Below the pieces are notes generated by a model, which saw only the letters and a program-made list of their open reading frames with translations, had not been told where the DNA came from and did no database searches. Positions 6,135 through 34,711 of a stretch of 34,711 bases of DNA are shown here, in pieces. The number at the start of each line of letters is the position of its first letter. The stretch's first letter is position 1. Source of the DNA: Formosa algae (lineage in GTDB: Bacteria; Bacteroidota; Bacteroidia; Flavobacteriales; Flavobacteriaceae); contig NZ_LMAK01000080.1 in assembly GCF_001439665.1 (NCBI RefSeq), positions 1 to 34,711 on the forward strand. The letters run 5' to 3'. The translations under genes and the position numbers were made by a program.

Positions 6135-8488
6135 ATAAAGGCTTAGTTAAGCTTAGAATATATTTAAAAAAACATAGGTTTAAGACGTTTTTAATAGTTG
6201 TTTTTGGCCTATGTTATATATTTTGTCTTCCCGAAAAATTATTTATTACACCCAACTCAACCCTAATAGAAAGTAAAGATGGTGAATTGTTGGGTGCTTT
6301 AATAGCTAGTGACGGACAGTGGCGATTCCCTGATTTAGATGTTGTTCCTGATAAATTTAAATACTGTATCGTTCAATTTGAAGACGAACATTTTTATGAG
6401 CATCCAGGTTTTAATCCTATATCCATGTTCAATGCTCTTAGGGCTAATATAAAAGCAAAAAAAACAGTAAGAGGTGGTAGCACGATAACCCAACAAGTCA
6501 TTAGACTTTCCCGACAAGGACAAAGCAGATCGTACTTTGAAAAACTTAAAGAGTTAATTTTAGCAACACGATTAGAATTTAAATTTTCAAAAGAAAAGAT
6601 TTTAAAAATGTATGTTTCACATGCGCCTTATGGTGGTAATGTGGTTGGTTTAGAAGCTGCTTCGTGGAGATATTTTAATGTGGCTCCTACAAAATTATCA
6701 TGGGGACAAAGTGCAATGCTTGCCGTATTACCAAATGCTCCAAGTTTATTGTATCCAGGTAAAAACGCAGATTTACTTTTAAAAAAACGAAATCGGTTAT
6801 TAAAGAAGTTGTTAGAATCTCATATTATAGATCAAACAACTTATAATTTATCTATAGAAGAAGACATTCCTACTAAACCTAAAAACTTACCTCAAGTAGC
6901 TCCTCATTTATTACAAAGGGTAGCGAAAAAGAATAGAGGAGAACGTATTAAAACATCAATAGATCTCACCGTACAGGAATTAGCACTACAAATAGTAAAT
7001 AAACATTACACACTACAATCTCAAAATGGTGTATATAATATGGCTGCTCTTATTTTGGATGTTAAAACTAAAAAAGTGATAAGCTATATCGGAAACACAA
7101 ATACAACTAAAGCACACCATAAAGATGTTGATATAATTACAGCTCCTAGAAGTACAGGAAGTATTTTAAAGCCTTTTTTATATATGTCTATGTTAGATAC
7201 CGGAGAGTTGTTACCCGAAACCATATTGCCAGATGTGCCAACTACAATAGGTAATTATAAGCCTGAGAACTTCACGTTAGAATATCTAGGAGCAGTTTCA
7301 GCAAAATTGGCTTTAGCAAAATCACTTAATATTCCCGCTGTTAGAATGTTATATTCGTATGGTATAACACGGTTTTATGATGATTTACAATCACTTTCAA
7401 TATCAGATATTAATAAAGGGGCAGATCATTATGGACTCTCATTAATACTTGGCGGTGCCGAAGGTAGTTTATGGGATATCTGTAGTGCATATAGTAATCT
7501 AGCATCAACTCTTGTGCATTTTAATTCAAATTCTAGTCAGTATTATGTAAACGAATTTCAACAACCCAATTACAACAAAGAATTTAATGCTGATTTAGGA
7601 GCTTTAACTTTTGATAAATCACATCTTAATGCGGGTAGTATTTATTTTGGGTTTGAAGCGATGAAAGAACTTAATAGACCGAGTATAGATAATTCATGGC
7701 GTTATTATAATTCTGCACAAGAAATTGCATGGAAAACAGGAACGAGTTATGGTAATAGAGATGCTTGGAGTGTTGGTGTTACAAAAGATTATGTGGTAGG
7801 TGTTTGGGTAGGAAATGCTGACGGTGAAGGAAGACCTGGCGTAACAGGTACGAGTGCTGCTGCACCGGTAATGTTTGATTTGTTTGACATACTACCAAAA
7901 TCGGAATGGTTTGCAACACCTTATGACGATTTAATTGATACTAAAATATGTACTAAAAGTGGACAATTAGCTAGTGATATTTGTCCGAGTACACTACAAA
8001 AAATACCAGCTAAAGGTTTAGAAACAACATTATGTAAGTATCATAAATTAATTCATTTAGATCAGACAAGAACCTATCAAGTCAATACGTCTTGTGAAAA
8101 ACTAAGTCATATAAATACAGTGTCTCAATTTGTTTTACCGCCTTTAATGGCTTGGTATTACAAAAAAAATAATGTCGATTATAAAACAGTACCTCCTTTA
8201 AGAGATGGTTGTAAAGGGGAAGCTACAACTGTTATGGCTTTTTCAGAACCTGTAAACACTAATACTATAATAGTACCTAAAGGAATTTCTGGAGCACGGA
8301 ATAAAGTAATTTTTAAAGTAGCTCATAATGATGCCAATGCGACTTTGTATTGGTATGTAGACGATACCTTTTTAAAATCGACTACTAATTTTAATGAAGT
8401 TGCTATAGACTTAAATGTAGGCGAACATATTATTACTGTTTTGGATCATTTAGGGAATAGTATTCAGAAAAAAATTCTTGTAAAATAA
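6113..8488 (+). CDS. pbpC: Penicillin-binding protein 1C (bifunctional transglycosylase/transpeptidase)
   Basis: A class A penicillin-binding protein that polymerises and cross-links peptidoglycan at the outer face of the inner membrane. One N-terminal membrane segment (about residues 24-40) is followed by a GT51 transglycosylase domain with EDEHFYEHPGF (catalytic Glu90) and RGGSTITQQ (120-128). The transpeptidase domain has all three motifs: SILK (Ser350-Lys353), SLN (404-406) and KTGTS (541-545). About 100 C-terminal residues form the BiPBP_C domain typical of PBP1C. The start overlaps the A2M gene by 22 bases, with AAAGGA just upstream, so the two are translationally coupled. At 791 aa the length is normal for PBP1C. 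No obvious terminator follows the stop. Confidence 0.95.
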   Translation: MGTSIRINKGLVKLRIYLKKHRFKTFLIVVFGLCYIFCLPEKLFITPNSTLIESKDGELLGALIASDGQWRFPDLDVVPDKFKYCIVQFEDEHFYEHPGFNPISMFNALRANIKAKKTVRGGSTITQQVIRLSRQGQSRSYFEKLKELILATRLEFKFSKEKILKMYVSHAPYGGNVVGLEAASWRYFNVAPTKLSWGQSAMLAVLPNAPSLLYPGKNADLLLKKRNRLLKKLLESHIIDQTTYNLSIEEDIPTKPKNLPQVAPHLLQRVAKKNRGERIKTSIDLTVQELALQIVNKHYTLQSQNGVYNMAALILDVKTKKVISYIGNTNTTKAHHKDVDIITAPRSTGSILKPFLYMSMLDTGELLPETILPDVPTTIGNYKPENFTLEYLGAVSAKLALAKSLNIPAVRMLYSYGITRFYDDLQSLSISDINKGADHYGLSLILGGAEGSLWDICSAYSNLASTLVHFNSNSSQYYVNEFQQPNYNKEFNADLGALTFDKSHLNAGSIYFGFEAMKELNRPSIDNSWRYYNSAQEIAWKTGTSYGNRDAWSVGVTKDYVVGVWVGNADGEGRPGVTGTSAAAPVMFDLFDILPKSEWFATPYDDLIDTKICTKSGQLASDICPSTLQKIPAKGLETTLCKYHKLIHLDQTRTYQVNTSCEKLSHINTVSQFVLPPLMAWYYKKNNVDYKTVPPLRDGCKGEATTVMAFSEPVNTNTIIVPKGISGARNKVIFKVAHNDANATLYWYVDDTFLKSTTNFNEVAIDLNVGEHIITVLDHLGNSIQKKILVK

Positions 8489-28292: not shown

Positions 28293-29558
28293 ATGATTTT
28301 GAAACGCGTCTTATTCTTACTCTTATTTTTATGTCTTTCAGTTAAATCCTTTGCATCTTATATCTTGATTCCTATGGATGCGGACGGACAGAAAAATCAT
28401 CTAAAAGCATACGGCATGACCTATTGGGCGCTCGATAAGCAATTAAAAGTAAAATGGCTGCTGAATTATCGTGGAGGCTCTTTTTTAGTACCGGATACCG
28501 ATGCTATTCAAAGGGAATGTCAGATTCGAGGGGTGTCTTTTGAAGTCATATCTAGTGATAAAGCTGAAAGTATTCTAGAACTAATTGATAGTCCGAGTCA
28601 GAATATGGAGGCTGTAGTTCTAGAAAAAGCACCTAAAATAGCTGTGTATACGCCCAAAGGAAAATTACCTTGGGATGATGCTGTGACTATGGTGTTAACC
28701 TATGCTGAAATTCCGTATACCACAGTGTACGATGAAGATGTTTTAAATGATAATTTGTTGTTATACGATTGGTTGCATTTACACCACGAAGATTTTACAG
28801 GACAATTCGGAAAATTCTATAATAGTTTTAGAACAGCTGCTTGGTATATTGAAGATAAGAAAGAAGCCGAAGCTTTAGCTACACGATTGGGATACAATAA
28901 AGTGTCTGATGAGAAACTGGCAGTAGCTTTAAAAATTAGAGATTATGTTGTTGGTGGTGGTTTTATGTTTGCCATGTGTAGCGCAACAGATTCTTTTGAT
29001 ATTGCATTATCTGCAGAAGGGATAGATATTTGTGAAGCCATGTTTGATGGCGATGCGAGTGATCCTGGCTATCAGAAGCAGATCGATTACAATAAGACAT
29101 TTGCTTTTACCGATTATATTCTAGAACGCGATCCTAAGGTCTATGAGTTTTCATCTATTGATATGACCACTAAACGACGTATTTTTAAAGATGCTGATTA
29201 TTTTAGCTTGATGGATTTTTCTGCCAAATGGGATCCTGTGCCTACTATGTTATGTCAGAATCATACGGCTTTGGTGAAAGGGTTTATGGGGCAAACGACT
29301 TCGTTTACACGCGACGAGATCAAGTCTAATGTATTGGTGCTCGGGGAAAACAAAACTAATGGTGAAGCGAAGTATATTCACGGAATTAAAGGGAAAGGTT
29401 TTTTTACATTCTACGGCGGTCACGACCCTGAAGATTACACGCATAAGGTAGGCGATCCTAAAACGGAACTGGAATTACATCCGACTTCTCCAGGGTATCG
29501 GTTAATTTTAAATAATGTGTTGTTTCCTGCTGCTAAGAAGAAGAAACAGAAGACTTGA
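28293..29558 (+). CDS. Secreted conserved protein, amidotransferase-like elbow (often labelled asparagine synthetase B)
   Basis: A 421-aa exported protein with a signal peptide (residues 1-21, ending KSFA). Closely similar flavobacterial proteins are, as I recall, commonly named asparagine synthetase B, but I see neither the N-terminal Cys nucleophile of a Ntn glutaminase nor an ATP pyrophosphatase SGGxDS motif, so that name looks wrong. The segment GGGFMFAMCSATDSFDIAL (221-239) resembles the nucleophile elbow of class I amidotransferase-like or ThuA-like folds, with Cys229 as candidate nucleophile. Other marked stretches are LHLHHEDFTGQFGKF (161-175) and, near the C-terminus, GKGFFTFYGGHDPEDY. 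It ends in a Lys-rich tail. The gene stands alone. Function unknown; a periplasmic hydrolase or binding protein is conceivable. Confidence 0.8.
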   Translation: MILKRVLFLLLFLCLSVKSFASYILIPMDADGQKNHLKAYGMTYWALDKQLKVKWLLNYRGGSFLVPDTDAIQRECQIRGVSFEVISSDKAESILELIDSPSQNMEAVVLEKAPKIAVYTPKGKLPWDDAVTMVLTYAEIPYTTVYDEDVLNDNLLLYDWLHLHHEDFTGQFGKFYNSFRTAAWYIEDKKEAEALATRLGYNKVSDEKLAVALKIRDYVVGGGFMFAMCSATDSFDIALSAEGIDICEAMFDGDASDPGYQKQIDYNKTFAFTDYILERDPKVYEFSSIDMTTKRRIFKDADYFSLMDFSAKWDPVPTMLCQNHTALVKGFMGQTTSFTRDEIKSNVLVLGENKTNGEAKYIHGIKGKGFFTFYGGHDPEDYTHKVGDPKTELELHPTSPGYRLILNNVLFPAAKKKKQKT

Positions 29559-29857
29559 TTGGTTATTGGTGAGAGGTGAATGGTGAGTAGTGAGTGGTCA
29601 GAAGTTTTTTAGTGAATTGTGAATAGTTTTTGATTGTTGTTTGCGTTGATTAGATTCCTCCTTTGTCGGAATGACAATTTGGGTGAGTGGTGAATCGTGA
29701 TTAATGAGAGGTTTTTTAGTGAAAGGGGTTTAGTGAATTGGGAGTAGTTTTTGATTGTTGTTTAGGTTGATTAGATTCCTCCTTTGTCGGAATGACATTT
29801 GTTTTTTATTCGTGAGAAGTGATTCGAGAATTGTTTATTTAAAATTGTGAAAACTTT

Positions 29858-30045
29858 GGCCTATCGAGAATGTAACTTAAAATGTACAGTGCACAGCTCG
29901 TAAAATTTTAAGCTGTTTGAGCAAGAATATGTTGCTCGACCTCACTATCTACTTTACATCGAAATCATAATAATTCTTAAGTTTTACAAGCGAGTTCTTA
30001 AAATTTAGAGCTGAAACATAACATTTAGTTACAGTGTCGTAAGCC
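29858..30045. repeat. 188-bp inverted-repeat-bounded (MITE-like) element
   Basis: The ends are imperfect inverted repeats: the left end GGCCTATCGAGAATGTAACT (29858-29877, continuing to 29885) matches the complement of 30021-30045 (GGCTTACGACACTGTAACT...). A second inverted pair lies inside, at 29893-29912 and 29994-30013 (CAGCTCnTAAAATTTTAAG type), and a perfect small hairpin GAGCAA/TTGCTC lies at 29919-29937. The whole can fold into a long imperfect hairpin. It has no coding capacity. It could be a non-autonomous mobile element or a structured RNA; I cannot separate these from the sequence. Confidence 0.6.
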
Positions 30046-30057
30046 TAGATTTTTTTG

Positions 30058-30088
30058 GTTCGTTTTTTCATTAATGGAAAAAATGAAC
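30058..30088 (+). terminator. Hairpin with T-rich tail next to the 188-bp element
   Basis: GTTCGTTTTTTCAT can pair with ATGGAAAAAATGAAC (one bulge, one mismatch) and is followed by ATCTTTTTCTTTTG. It may be a terminator, or the outer flank of the adjacent inverted-repeat element. Confidence 0.4.
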
Positions 30089-30210
30089 ATCTTTTTCTTT
30101 TGTGGATTGGTAAGTGGTGAGAGGTGAATCGTGAGTAGTGATAAGTTTTTTAATGAATAGTTGTTGATTGTTGTTTCGGTGTTTTAGATTCCTCCTTTGT
30201 CGGAATGACA

Positions 30211-30396
30211 ATTTGGGTGAATTGGGAGTAGTGAGAGGTGATTAGTGAATAGTTTTTGATTGTTGTTTACGTTGATTAGATTCCTCCTTAGGTCGGAATG
30301 ACAATTTGGGTGAATTGGGAGTAGTGAGAGGTGATTAGTAAATAGTTTTTGATTGTTGTTTACGTTGATTAGATTCCTCCTTAGGTCGGAATGACA
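30211..30396 (+). repeat. Near-perfect 93-bp tandem duplication
   Basis: Units 30211-30303 and 30304-30396 are both 93 bases and differ at a single position (TTAGTGAAT versus TTAGTAAAT). Each ends with a type A element. The high identity points to a recent duplication. Confidence 0.9.
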
Positions 30397-30525
30397 ATTT
30401 GGGTGAGTGGTGAGAGGTGAATTGGGAGTAGTGAGAGGTGATTAGTGAATAGTTGTTGATGAGTTTTAGGTGTTTTAGATTTCTCTTTTGGGCGTAATGA
30501 CATTTGATTATTAATGATTAAGTGA

Positions 30526-30558
30526 TTTGTTACATTTGAGATATAAATGTTTCCTTTG
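30526..30558 (+). promoter_or_regulatory. Promoter for the YjbQ-like gene
   Basis: TTTG, 21 bases, TTCCTTTG; the -7 differs from TAnnTTTG at one base. It ends 24 bases before the start codon and lies just past the repeat array. Confidence 0.5.
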
Positions 30559-30582
30559 TACCTTTAATTCAAAAGCTTATTT

Positions 30583-31002
30583 ATGGTCCATCAAAAAGAG
30601 ATTACTTTAAAACCATATAAACGTGGGTTTCATATTATCACAGAAGATATCCTCAAAGCATTCCCTGAATTGAGAACTATACATGCAGGATTGTTACAGG
30701 TATTTATTAAACATACTTCAGCGAGTTTAACCATCAATGAAAATGCAGATCCTTCCGTACGTGTCGATTTTGAAAGTCATATGAATATTATGGTGCCTGA
30801 GAATCAACCGTATTATATTCATACCTATGAAGGGGCAGACGATATGCCTGCACATATAAAATCGTCTTTAATGGGAGCGAGTGTTCTAATTCCTATTACT
30901 AATGGTCGGCTTAATTTAGGAACATGGCAAGGCATTTACCTCTGTGAGCACCGAGATTATGGCGGATCCAGACAGTTGGTCTTAACAGCCATTGGTGCTT
31001 AA
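30583..31002 (+). CDS. YjbQ/UPF0047 family protein
   Basis: A 139-aa member of the UPF0047 (YjbQ) family, small cytoplasmic proteins annotated as secondary thiamine-phosphate synthases because some members replace ThiE weakly; the main role is unsettled. The family signature is clear: IKHTSASLTINENADPSVRVDFE (His44 onward), EGADDMPAHIKSSLMG (83-98), and GTWQGIYLCEHRDYGGSRQL (113-132). Conserved His44, His91 and His123 are likely metal or substrate ligands. Length is typical. The gene lies alone, upstream and convergent to the HAD hydrolase gene, with repeat arrays on either side of the pair. Confidence 0.9.
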   Translation: MVHQKEITLKPYKRGFHIITEDILKAFPELRTIHAGLLQVFIKHTSASLTINENADPSVRVDFESHMNIMVPENQPYYIHTYEGADDMPAHIKSSLMGASVLIPITNGRLNLGTWQGIYLCEHRDYGGSRQLVLTAIGA

Positions 31003-31057
31003 AAAATATTAAGAGGCTTCAACAAGTTAGAATGCTTTTAAAAGTCTGCTATTGGGA

Positions 31058-31870
31058 TTACTTAGCCGCTTTTGCAGCAATCAGTTGCTCTAACACAGTT
31101 TCAACGCCAAGGGCATCATTACTAGAGGTTTCAAAACGCGCTGTATGTTTTACATTCGGATGTGCATTGGCCATGGCATAGCTAAAATACGCACGCTCAA
31201 GCATTTCTAAATCATTGTTATAGTCACCAAAAACCATGGTTTCATCTTCAGAAATACCAAACTCATCTTGTACGAGTTTTAAAGCAAAGCCTTTATTGGC
31301 ATCATGGTGCGAAATGTCTAACCAATTCTGCCCGGACACTTTAATTTTAAACTCATCTTCTAAATGCTTTATTTTTGGATAAATATTAGCTTCAGAATCT
31401 TCTATATGATAGATAGCCAGTTTTAGAAACTCATCGTCTGTGACTTTAGTCAGATCGTCTACCGTATTAAACTCGGTGTAATATTCACTTAATAATTTAG
31501 GGAAATGAATGTTATCGGTTTCTATATAGGCTTTCGTTTTACCGCATAGTACAATAAAGGTGTCTTCTATAGTTCTCAATAGCGGAAGAATGCTATTAAT
31601 CTTGTCTTTAGATAGTGTCATTTTGGCTAACTCTTGGTCGCCACGCTTAGTAATTCCTCCGTTTTCAGCAATAATGGTAATCTCATCTTTTATAGCATCT
31701 AACTTTTCAATAATACTGAAATACTGACGGCCGCTAGCCGCAATAAATTGGATGTTATGGTCTTGAAGTTGACGAAATAATGTGTAGAACTGTGGGCTCA
31801 CTTCCCCTTTAGAATTGAGTAAGGTTCCATCCATATCGGTAACCACGAGTTTTACTTGAGATAATTCCAT
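31058..31870 (-). CDS. Cof-type HAD-IIB phosphatase
   Basis: A 270-aa haloacid dehalogenase-type hydrolase of the Cof subfamily, which dephosphorylates sugar phosphates or nucleotide cofactors in the cytoplasm. Motif I is DMDGTLL at residues 12-18 (Asp12 nucleophile), motif II is AASGRQ, and the C-terminal motif is VFGDYNNDLEMLERA, with the Mg-binding Asp residues. The IIB cap lies between. The substrate is not predictable. I start at ATG 31870: the frame extends to a TTG at 31894, but that codon is the end of the TATTTTTG -7 element, so it should be upstream of the transcript start. Confidence 0.88.
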   Translation of the reverse strand: MELSQVKLVVTDMDGTLLNSKGEVSPQFYTLFRQLQDHNIQFIAASGRQYFSIIEKLDAIKDEITIIAENGGITKRGDQELAKMTLSKDKINSILPLLRTIEDTFIVLCGKTKAYIETDNIHFPKLLSEYYTEFNTVDDLTKVTDDEFLKLAIYHIEDSEANIYPKIKHLEDEFKIKVSGQNWLDISHHDANKGFALKLVQDEFGISEDETMVFGDYNNDLEMLERAYFSYAMANAHPNVKHTARFETSSNDALGVETVLEQLIAAKAAK

Positions 31871-31891
31871 AGTGCATTTTTTTTGAAGCCT

Positions 31892-31899
31892 CAAAAATA
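31892..31899 (-). promoter_or_regulatory. -7 element for the HAD hydrolase gene
   Basis: TATTTTTG on the minus strand, a full TAnnTTTG match, 21 bases from ATG 31870. No clear -33 TTG; upstream DNA is the edge of the repeat array. Confidence 0.55.
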
Positions 31900-31954
31900 C
31901 AGTTTTTAATGTCGCTGAGGTGTTAAGTGGGTGTTATTTTATGAACTGGTTTTG

Positions 31955-32601
31955 GTTGATGGTGAAGGGTGAAGGGTGAATAATGAGAAGTGAGAAGTGA
32001 GAGGTGAAGGGGGAGTTGTGAATTGTTAATTTAGTTTTAATGATGAGATGCTTCGCTTCGTTGCTCTTCGCTCTGCATGACAGTACTGATTAGTGATTGG
32101 AGGTTTTTTTGTCATTCCGACGGAGGGAGGAATCTCATTTTAGATGTGTTTTGTTGGGGGGTATTTGTGAGATGCTTCGCTTTGCTCTGCATGACAGTTG
32201 GTGAGTGGTGAATTGTTAATTTAGTTATAATGATGAGGTACTTCGCTTCGTGCCTTGCTCTGCATGACAGATAGATTTGTCATTGGAGGTTTTTTGTCAT
32301 TCCGACGGTAGGAGGAATCTCATTCAAGATGTGTTTTGATAGGGGGTTATTTGTGAGATGCTTCGCTTTGCTCTGTATGACAGGTGGTGAATGGTGAGAG
32401 GTGAATTGTTAATTTAGTTTTAAAGATAAGATACTTCGCTTCGTTGCTCTTCGCTCTGTATGACAGGTGGTGAATGGTGAGTTGTGAATTGTTAATTTAG
32501 TTTTAATGATGAGATGCTTCGCTTCGTTGCTCTTCGCTCTGTATGACAGTACTGATTAGTGAATAGTGAAGGATGAGATGTTTTGCTACGGTCTGCTGGA
32601 G
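31955..32601 (+). repeat. REP-like repeat array 2 (types A and B in higher-order units)
   Basis: Gene-free DNA between the HAD gene and the ABC permease. Type B elements (GAGATGCTTCG ... CTGCATGACAG) on the plus strand lie at 32045-32083, 32169-32197, 32235-32270, 32355-32383, 32428-32466, 32511-32549 and a degenerate one at 32575-32601. Type A elements in the opposite sense (TGTCATTCC ... GGAATCTCA) lie at 32110-32137 and 32295-32322. The phrase GAATTGTTAATTTAGTT restarts at 32020, 32210, 32403 and 32486, giving units of 190, 193 and 83 bases. The two long units read long B, inverted A, short B; the later ones contain only a long B. The leading 60 bases are a degenerate GGTGAAG-type tract. 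Confidence 0.85.
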
Positions 32602-32710
32602 AGTGAGGTTGTTTGTATTGTGGATGTTTGAGTTGCTTCTATAAGCTCTAATAAAAAACATTTCGGGATTAAAACCGATTTGTTATATTAGCGCAACTAA
32701 AATCAGTACC

Positions 32711-33592
32711 TTGAATTCATCAAACCCAACCGATCTTCCGTGGTTATATACCATCTCTCCGAAGCGTAAATTAATCGATCTTAACTTTAAGGAAATATGG
32801 AGGTATAAGGATTTGTTGTTCTTATTCGTAAAGCGAGATATCGTTACCGTATATAAGCAAACCATCCTTGGTCCGTTGTGGTATTTTATACAGCCTTTAT
32901 TTACTTCTATAATCTTTACGGTTATCTTTAATAATCTGGCAGCCATTCCGGTAAAGCCTGGTGTGCCTGCTTTTTTGTTTAACTTGGCAGGGATTACAGC
33001 ATGGAATTATTTTAAAGAATGCCTTACGGGAACGAGTGATACGTTTACTAAAAACCAAGCGATATTTGGGAAAGTGTATTTCCCAAGAGTGATTATTCCC
33101 ATGTCTATAGTCGTCTCTAATTTGGTGAAGTTTGCGATACAAATACTCGTGTTTATAGGATTTTATGTCTACTATGCTGGTTTTACTAATTCAGCTTATG
33201 CGGCGCGTCCGGAAATCAGTTTACTACTATTACCAGTGCTGGTTCTTATTATGGGACTCTTAGGGTTAGGCTTTGGGATGCTTATTTCCTCGATGACTAC
33301 TAAGTACCGCGATTTAACCTTTTTAGTCACTTTCGGTGTGCAATTGTTAATGTATGGCTCGGCGGTGATGTATCCGTTGTCCTTTTTTGAAGAAAAGTTG
33401 CCAAGTGTGTCTTGGCTTGTGGCTTATAATCCGATGACCATCGTAATCGAGGCCTTTCGTCATATTACATTAGGGGTTGGAGAGATTTCTGTGTCTCAAT
33501 TACTGTATATTGGGATTGTGAGTGTCTTGGTGTTTCTCTTAGGACTTATCGTGTTTAATAGTACGGAGAAGAAATTTATTGATACGGTTTAG
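32711..33592 (+). CDS. ABC-2 type export permease (polysaccharide/O-antigen Wzm-like)
   Basis: A 293-aa inner-membrane permease of the ABC-2/Wzm type, which with an ATPase (Wzt) exports O-antigen, teichoic-acid-like or other surface polysaccharide. About six membrane segments are visible after an amphipathic N-terminus (FKEIWRYKDLLFLFVKRDIVTVYKQT, a typical TagG/Wzm opening), with LGPLWYFIQPLFTSIIFTVIF as the first membrane helix region and ALVAYNPMTIVIEAFRH-like NPM motif near residue 245. The start is a TTG at 32711: conserved sequence begins at once and no in-frame ATG exists, so I accept it. A degenerate promoter (TTTC-N19-TATATTAG) ends 19 bases upstream. The partner ATPase does not follow directly; repeats and a nuclease gene do. 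Confidence 0.87.
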   Translation: MNSSNPTDLPWLYTISPKRKLIDLNFKEIWRYKDLLFLFVKRDIVTVYKQTILGPLWYFIQPLFTSIIFTVIFNNLAAIPVKPGVPAFLFNLAGITAWNYFKECLTGTSDTFTKNQAIFGKVYFPRVIIPMSIVVSNLVKFAIQILVFIGFYVYYAGFTNSAYAARPEISLLLLPVLVLIMGLLGLGFGMLISSMTTKYRDLTFLVTFGVQLLMYGSAVMYPLSFFEEKLPSVSWLVAYNPMTIVIEAFRHITLGVGEISVSQLLYIGIVSVLVFLLGLIVFNSTEKKFIDTV

Positions 33593-34222
33593 AGTGAGGG
33601 AATAGTGATTGGGTTTGTATTCGAGAGATGCTTCGCTTCGTTGCTCTTCGCTCTGCATGACAGGTAGGTTTGTTGTTTTAGGGTTCTATTATGAGATGCT
33701 TCGCTACGTTCTGCATGACAGGTGATTTCATGAATTGGAGGTTTTATTGTCATTCCGACCTAAGGAGGAATCTTATTCTAGATATGTTTTATTTTGGGTT
33801 CTATTTGTGAGATACTTCGCTGCGTACCTTGCTCTGCATGACAGTACGTTTCATGTATTGGGGTTTTAATGATGAGATGCTTCGCTTCGTTGCTCTTCGC
33901 TCTGCATGACAGTTTGTTTCATGATTTTGTGTTCAATGTCATTCCGACCTAAGGAGGAATCTCATTTACGGTAATTTTTATATAGTTTCAATTAGTGAGA
34001 TGCTTCACTGCGTTCTGCATGACAGTACATTTCATTATTGGGGTTTTAATGATGAGATACTTCGCTTCGTTGCCTTGCTCTGCATGACAATTGGGATTGG
34101 TGATTGTGGTTCAAATGATGAGATGCTTCGCTTTAATCAGCATGACAGGTATTATATTGCAGAGGTGTTTTGTTTCGTTTTTAATGGTAGAATATTAATG
34201 ATTGTATGAGTTTATCTTTCTA
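33593..34222 (+). repeat. REP-like repeat array 3
   Basis: Gene-free DNA between the permease and the GIY-YIG gene. Type B elements on the plus strand lie at 33625-33663, 33693-33721, 33809-33844, 33874-33912, 33997-34025, 34054-34090 and 34120-34148. Inverted type A elements lie at 33748-33775 and 33937-33964. A phrase TTGGGGTTTTAATGATGAGAT precedes several long B copies in whole or part. In the A copies here the core reads ATTCC-GA-CCT-A-AGG-A-GGAAT, a good hairpin. Short (about 29 bases) and long (36-39 bases) B forms are mixed. Confidence 0.85.
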
Positions 34223-34528
34223 CTAGATCATGTCATTTAAAAAGTGCCAATTAGGATTAAATGCTGAGATTAGTTTGTCTTTTTTCATTCGGCTATATCC
34301 TTTAATTTGTTTTTCTCTTTTAATAGCTGTTTCAATACAGGAAAAATGTTCGTAATAGACTAAGAATACACAATTATATTTTGCTGTGAATGCTTTAGAA
34401 CAGGGATTTGGATTGTTGTGAATATATAAACGCTCTTTTAAGTTTCCAGTTACACCTGTGTATAACACGGTTTTGTTTTTATTGGTTACGATGTAAACAT
34501 AGTAGTTATGATTCCCTTTTGTTTTCAT
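34223..34528 (-). CDS. Small GIY-YIG endonuclease (YhbQ/UPF0213-like)
   Basis: A 101-aa single-domain GIY-YIG nuclease. The two sequence halves are YYVYIV (9-14, GIY position) and LYTGVTGNLKERLYIH (22-37, YIG position with the conserved Arg33 and His37). The catalytic metal-binding Glu is probably Glu72 in AIKREKQIKG, and NPNW (91-94) is the usual C-terminal feature. Family relatives cut DNA, sometimes single-stranded or branched; this subgroup has no settled role. The gene is inside the repeat field: a type B element ends 74 bases past its stop and another begins 51 bases before its start. No partner gene is visible. A role in cutting or moving the repeats is inference. Confidence 0.88.
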   Translation of the reverse strand: MKTKGNHNYYVYIVTNKNKTVLYTGVTGNLKERLYIHNNPNPCSKAFTAKYNCVFLVYYEHFSCIETAIKREKQIKGYSRMKKDKLISAFNPNWHFLNDMI

Positions 34529-34578
34529 GTCTTTAATTTATGAAAAAATTGTGATTGTTTTAATTTGGGTAGATTGAT

Positions 34579-34711
34579 GAGATGCTTCACTTCGTTGCTC
34601 TTCGTTCTGCATGACAGTATGTTTCGTGATTCAGTATCTTTTGTTGAGATGCTTCGCTTTGCTCTGCATGACAGGTGTTTTTGTTATTGGGGTTTTAATG
34701 ATGAGATGCTT
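34579..34711 (+). repeat. REP-like repeat array 4 (runs off the window)
   Basis: Three type B elements on the plus strand: long at 34579-34617, short at 34646-34674 and one cut by the window edge from 34703. The array clearly continues to the right. Confidence 0.85.

Follow-up and report, generated by a model that had tools for sequence, protein, structure and literature searches.

What is a solitary GIY-YIG nuclease gene doing in the midst of a dense array of short hairpin-like repeats? The locus lies in the window, the whole stretch of DNA analysed, which is the entire contig C80 (34,711 bp) of a 4.29 Mb genome in 82 contigs (G000). An earlier note had described an intact 101-residue GIY-YIG gene on the minus strand inside the array, with type B elements 74 and 51 bases from its ends and about 27 copies in 5 kb, and had proposed a nuclease-repeat system. 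The gene is borne out by its Pfam match (Table 1), and the two distances were remeasured as 75 and 50 bases. We found 24 intact elements (15 of type B and nine of type A) in the last 5.1 kb of the window, from 29651 to 34673, together with one copy cut by the contig end (from ~34700) and, by eye, a few degenerate copies, which makes the figure of about 27 a fair one. From 29651 to the contig end the elements are arranged in tandem units of 83 to 189 bp, those in the 33625-34089 stretch being 189 bp long.

Table 1. Features of the element array and its surroundings, in window coordinates
Feature	Position	Strand	Remarks
Five type A elements	29651-30396	-	units of 121 and 93 bp
Six type B (-) and two type A (+) elements	32045-32548	both	upstream of wzm; tandem units of 186 and 83 bp
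ABC-2 permease gene, wzm-like	32711-33592	+	adjoins array; PF01061
Six type B elements (33625, 33693, 33809, 33874, 33997, 34054)	33625-34089	-	read 5' TGTC to 3' CTC
Two type A elements (33748, 33937)	33625-34089	+	read 5' TGTC to 3' CTC
Type B element	34120-34147	-	75 bp downstream of nuclease gene
GIY-YIG nuclease gene, single-domain, 101 aa	34223-34528	-	PF01541, E 4.9e-15
Type B element	34579-34616	-	50 bp upstream of nuclease gene
Type B element	34646-34673	-	further copy beyond, cut by contig end

With strict patterns, which cover non-degenerate copies only, type A has nine matches in the whole G000 genome, all of them in the window, and type B has 24, of which the window holds 13 and contig C32 the other 11. 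The array is more than chance, because the strict patterns are confined to the window and C32 and the reversed control patterns match nowhere in the genome. The window contig ends within the array. Since C32 (8618 bp) begins at one of its ends with elements that are followed by wzt (PF00005 and Wzt_C PF14524), the partner of the window's wzm, and since the order in the relative G250 agrees (wzm, array, the same two ORFs, array, wzt), C32 very probably continues the array of C80, the two contigs being neighbours. The ORFs between wzm and wzt in the array region, of 147 residues (L005 7528-7971) and 83 residues (8079-8330), have no Pfam match; they recur at loci L189, L190 and L193, being kept in G250 and G014, and in G245 they directly follow wzt. 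A structural RNA reading of the elements was dropped, Rfam at its gathering threshold giving no match in 29500-34711. Between the hairpin elements at 29556-30453 and 31961-32007 of the window run tandem repeats of seven GTGA-rich bases (TGAGTGG, GGTGAAG, TGAGAAG).

The window elements read 5'-TGTC, a stem beginning with AT, GA, a short inner stem-loop, GA, the second stem strand and CTC-3'. Stem pairing was assessed in 195 distinct elements picked by TGTCATNNNGA...GANNNATCTC, for which pairing in NNN is not required. Positions 1, 2 and 3 of the NNN stem are complementary in 183, 188 and 89 of these elements, and the total of 460/585 compares with a mean of 312 and a maximum of 335 in 2000 shuffles. 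Among the 54 elements of 28 nt, 46 have the first inner pair (shuffle maximum 39), 42 the second (shuffle maximum 42, a weak signal) and two the third, and the commonest loops are GCA, GTA and GAA. DNA of the sequence d(GCGNAGC) is known to fold into a very stable mini-hairpin, and pairing can also occur at tandem GA mismatches. Nearest-neighbour folding of seven flavobacterial-type elements did not rise above shuffles (z -0.65 to 1.15), which lends no support to strong hairpin thermodynamics for this type; folding of a Neisseria-type element was clear (z -3.92). The predicted hairpin is supported by stem conservation, not by thermodynamic stability.

Seven residues of the nuclease, Y12, Y23, G25, R33, H37, E72 and N91, are invariant across 34 aligned rows, and they include the Tyr, Arg and Glu residues (Y12, Y23, R33 and E72) that we take to be catalytic in the GIY-YIG domain. 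The domain match, these four residues and the fold make the protein a member of the GIY-YIG superfamily (PF01541). Its AlphaFold2 model (pLDDT 93.7) matches the UPF0213 protein BH0048 best (E 4.1e-4) and then Slx1, a structure-specific nuclease (E 0.011 and weaker). UPF0213 (1zg2 and 1ywl) and Slx1 share the GIY-YIG fold, but sequence similarity to the two UPF0213 chains is weak (E 3e-4 and 2e-3). The nearest named relative, among the best 80 of 328 homologues, comes from an uncultured Formosa sp. (87% identity), which makes a Formosa-like flavobacterium the probable source of the DNA. A phage-borne origin of the gene was rejected: PHROGs and PADLOC gave no match, and 50,697 phage records held only one match to the window protein (E 3e-7, in an unannotated record) and zero to its neisserial homologue.

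The association of gene and elements recurs well beyond this locus. We compiled 121 loci with homologous genes, comprising 79 from named genomes, chosen on protein similarity alone (best 80 of 328 confirmed), 27 from a search of related genomes and 15 from a plasmid collection (15 of 32 records with a match); L014 and L016, shortened by contig ends, are excluded, and the loci are not fully independent because some come from the same genome (e.g. L007 and L040). Under a looser element definition (TGTC, CGTC or CCTC; a stem of 4 bp that starts with AT or AC; CT or CC as the tail), an element lies within 500 bp of the gene in 112 of the 121 loci (77/79, 21/27 and 14/15), compared with 191 of 1820 pseudo-gene placements made at least 2.5 kb away within the named-genome and plasmid loci. 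The other nine loci have no element within 500 bp. Elements are thus enriched within 500 bases of homologous genes, as the earlier note had suggested could be checked. When elements that touch the stop codon are counted, the number rises to 113 of 121, and 98 of 121 loci have elements on both sides.

In the 79 named-genome loci the elements number 4.65/kb in the nearest 100 bp and 0.024/kb at a distance of 4-6 kb, and five tag-changed controls total 0-2 each. Near the gene, six control tag sets reach 0.07-0.53/kb and match 4 to 20 of the 121 loci. The nearest flanking elements lie at median gaps of 42 and 21 bases, and in 50 of 96 loci the nearest upstream and downstream elements form an inverted pair whose tails point to the gene (18, 16 and 12 for the other arrangements). 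The neighbours of the 79 loci belong to 95 families, 69 of them single. A tag-blind hairpin scan with 6-bp stems recovered the CGTC...CCA class (17 near, in nine loci, vs 6 far) and barely recovered the short-stem TGTC...CTC class (2 near, 5 far).

The pairing is found in three phyla, Pseudomonadota, Cyanobacteriota and Bacteroidota. Under a strict definition (5-bp stem), CGTC, TGTC or CCTC elements lie within 500 bp of the gene in 13 of the 15 plasmid-collection loci, those of Planktothrix, Spirosoma, two Shinella, S. meliloti, Sinorhizobium K101, Neorhizobium, two Rhizobium, Azospirillum, Aeromonas, Photobacterium and N. gonorrhoeae; the Novosphingobium and Sphingobium loci have no strict-definition element within that distance. 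The Azospirillum gene is found between sufB and sufC. The neisserial homologue sits among dRS3-type repeats, its elements being CGTCATTCCCGCGCAGGCGGGAATCCA or near variants, and dRS3 corresponds to the neisserial CGTC-1 repeats in a 2013 survey (PMC3733652). That survey defines a CGTC REP superfamily with a CGTC, TGTC or CCTC head, a stem that starts with complementary AT, a stem of 8-9 bp, a loop of 4-5 nt and a tail that is mostly CCA (PMC3733652). The window elements share the head, the stem starting with complementary AT (TGTC-AT...AT) and the short unpaired tail, but differ in their outer stems of 4-5 bp, their longer GA...GA interior and their CTC, CTA or CTT tails. Because the stem, interior and tail differ, we regard the window elements as relatives and not members of the CGTC REPs; the proteobacterial loci fit the stem, loop and tail definition better.

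A further difference is that the window elements have a candidate enzyme: in the survey, CGTC REPs were apparently without a dedicated transposase, none having been found flanked by CGTC repeats (PMC3733652). A term search of that survey gives no GIY, and one of a GIY-YIG survey (PMC1564403) gives no "palindrom". Among the papers listed by literature searches, titles and abstract openings showed none that pairs GIY-YIG with REP, dRS3 or Ssn.

Element tags agree with the lineage of the enzyme. On a tree of 120 proteins and 101 columns, built by a quick method and with many forks left open, the head tag requires 3 changes, the tail 6 and the AT/AC stem start 4; shuffling gives 12.5 (minimum 10 in 100), 15.3 and 8.8, respectively. 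Tags follow the enzyme tree, an agreement that is partly confounded with phylum on a poorly resolved tree. Within the Rhizobiaceae two enzyme groups have CGTC and CCTC elements. In one genus, different enzyme copies within a single genome may also carry different elements: G251 has two families, and in G245 TGTC elements lie near one copy and CGTC elements near the other. In six congeneric genomes tagged elements occur near only 6 of 14 GIY-YIG matches. Of the other eight, some are distant or broken genes, and those at trpB-trpA in G000 and G249 have hairpins that lack a head tag.

A second GIY-YIG gene of G000, 51% identical (L002; contig C13:28810-29079), lies between trpB and trpA, and this junction was examined in ten genomes. 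It is empty in the congener G245 (4 bp) and in G006 (3 bp). In G000, G249 and G013 it measures 378-400 bp and holds a GIY-YIG gene of ~94 codons between inverted hairpins, recognised by eye, whose head tags are lost; in G014 (303 bp) a gene of the same type is part-deleted. G250 and G251 (989 and 940 bp) have CGTC elements and a different GIY-YIG gene, which shares 51-52% identity with the C13 copy, G005 (202 bp) has elements and no gene, and G002 (~1.3 kb; trpB alignment partial) has neither. Two enzyme lineages at a single junction, beside empty ones, point to repeated insertion, in which the direction of change would be gain. trpB-trpA is the one junction known here in both filled and empty form; a GIY-YIG homing endonuclease would cut alleles that have no such gene and be copied into them.

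Gene and elements also vary at the wzm locus, where G250 keeps arrays without the nuclease, and in G014 the neighbouring genes are the same but elements are absent. Separation of wzm and wzt, which lie at most 66 bp apart in 16 of 30 loci from relatives, was considered as an insertion footprint and dropped: because the pair is apart in G014 with no element between, the array is not the cause of the separation.

Among the 95 of 125 places listed for G094, all 22 plus-then-minus neighbours within 200 bp are spaced 42-44 bp apart, and the three readable spacers are alike; the inverted pairs are REPIN-like dimers. Many G094 elements carry an extra GC-rich hairpin in the loop (around CCTGTCCCGGCCTTTTCGGTCGGGG), which is repeated at numerous places and looks like a repeat that has inserted into a different repeat. 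In the complete genome G220 (113 matches) the listed matches form ten clusters of at least four, one of which holds the strongest nuclease homologue.

The best reading of these patterns is an Ssn-like nuclease with cognate repeats that would work like a non-HUH REP/RAYT. Enzyme and repeats probably form one selfish, mobile system, in which the nuclease likely recognises the elements. The nuclease-repeat system proposed in the earlier note gains from the enrichment, from tags that match the tree and from presence and absence at orthologous places, and these lend support to spread of gene and elements as a single selfish unit; element-rich genomes without the gene, discussed below, tell against it, as do the congeneric copies that lack tagged elements, the nine loci with none within 500 bp, the folding result and the G250 arrays at wzm. 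For the specific proposal that the GIY-YIG protein is a site-specific nuclease, that its cognate targets are the surrounding elements and that the two make up one selfish unit, our confidence is somewhat better than even. Flanking on both sides, paired stems, intact catalytic residues, the evenly spaced inverted pairs of G094 and the variety of neighbour families also speak for it. The autonomous form would be element, gene and inverted element, and the non-autonomous forms would be the element arrays and the dispersed inverted pairs. When single-stranded, on the lagging strand, during DNA uptake or in repair, an element would fold into its hairpin and the nuclease would cut at or near the invariant tag. 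Repair or recombination could then copy elements, sometimes with the gene, to new sites, and arrays would expand.

A 2025 Nature Communications paper reportedly describes Ssn, a family of GIY-YIG nucleases that cut only single-stranded DNA, at specific sites, one target being a neisserial repeat. Ssn is said to modulate transformation in Neisseria and to have many homologues, each with its own targets. The window nuclease presumably resembles this family: the feature described for Ssn, a small GIY-YIG protein encoded alone amid a repeat family of its own, is seen here in the 112 loci and in the neisserial homologue with its dRS3-type repeats. The Bacteroidota elements would differ from those of Ssn in their TGTC and CTC tags, their short stems, their two types in opposite orientation and the evidence of mobility at empty junctions. 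If Ssn is as reported, a nuclease paired with its repeat is in essence already known; what appears to be new is the form seen in Bacteroidota, the connection with CGTC REPs and the genomic evidence of mobility. The REPtrons and REPINs of REP/RAYT systems show the same repeat-flanked gene, fixed-spacing inverted pairs, enzyme-matched families and enzyme-less genomes, but the flanked gene here encodes a GIY-YIG protein and not an HUH tyrosine transposase, and the head tag is TGTC, not GTAG.

The alternative that survives best is that the nuclease serves its host, the repeats being cut sites around variable loci and the enzyme tuning uptake and recombination of incoming single-stranded DNA without promoting its own spread. 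The array between wzm and wzt of a polysaccharide export locus would suit such a role, as would the neisserial homologue among its repeats and the reported effect of Ssn on transformation. However, gene and hairpins vary at orthologous junctions and in unrelated contexts, and many of the host loci are housekeeping ones (trp, suf). We consider this role unlikely as a full account; it is compatible with the selfish-unit explanation and not exclusive of it.

Less probable still is that another enzyme, such as a RAYT, spreads the elements, among which the GIY-YIG gene would insert as a parasite of the homing type. The earlier note had called for a comparison of genomes with and without the gene. 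In 249 genomes of the family, a homologue (E <= 1e-3) is present in 56 of the 63 with at least three element matches and in 113 of the 186 others (Fisher p 1.9e-5), and at E <= 1e-20 in 38/63 vs 34/186 (p 1.3e-9), in tests that ignore relatedness and with an element pattern that misses other tags. Elements and homologue thus tend to occur together; a search for PF01541 in 34 chosen genomes found no solo GIY-YIG gene in G094, G208 and G186, which have 125, 30 and 22 elements, nor in G164, G155 and G170, which have 4, 3 and 8. Taken literally, G094, G208 and G186 are the refuting case named in the earlier note, genomes rich in elements and without such a gene. Four more, G036, G131, G234 and G147, have elements and only distant solo GIY-YIG genes, and the four such loci fetched have no element. 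Enzyme loss or draft gaps could explain the element-rich genomes without the gene. The assemblies of G208, G186 and G170 are drafts, with several of the G208 elements close to a contig end; G094 is 99% complete. Enzyme loss with element survival is described for REPtrons (PMC3733652). The enzyme-less genomes and the REPIN-like pairs in one of them favour a different mobilising enzyme, against which stand the tags that follow the nuclease lineage and the absence, in the 2013 survey, of any transposase flanked by CGTC repeats (PMC3733652).

Passive co-location, with gene and elements both gathering in tolerant intergenic DNA, was rejected as the main explanation on the density near the gene and the 112/121 vs 191/1820 comparison, and is very improbable: most elements do lie between genes, and there are 1.49/kb in noncoding DNA more than 1 kb away, but per noncoding base the density within 500 bp is 9.65/kb, the tags agree with the enzyme lineage, and six distant solo GIY-YIG genes have no element in loci of 2.1-3.2 kb.

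Returning to the nuclease with cognate repeats, we suggest a broader version tentatively, with a little less than even confidence: small GIY-YIG nucleases may be the dedicated mobilising enzymes of CGTC, TGTC and CCTC REPs across phyla, a non-HUH REPtron that would move as hairpin, gene and inverted hairpin, mobilise REPIN-like pairs in trans and read the unpaired tags. CGTC-class REPs are present in several phyla, and the 2013 survey knew of no driver for them; if the suggestion is true, GIY-YIG enzymes would fill that gap, and the REP/RAYT lifestyle would gain a second enzyme class with a different chemistry. A tie between a nuclease of 100 residues and REP spread is testable with one purified protein and one oligonucleotide, and the differing tags offer a natural set of enzyme-target pairs. 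On plasmid p1 of Planktothrix agardhii (L144, 4995-5279), MmeI and drmA of a DISARM-like defence locus have a GIY-YIG gene between them that is accompanied by TGTC..CTC elements.
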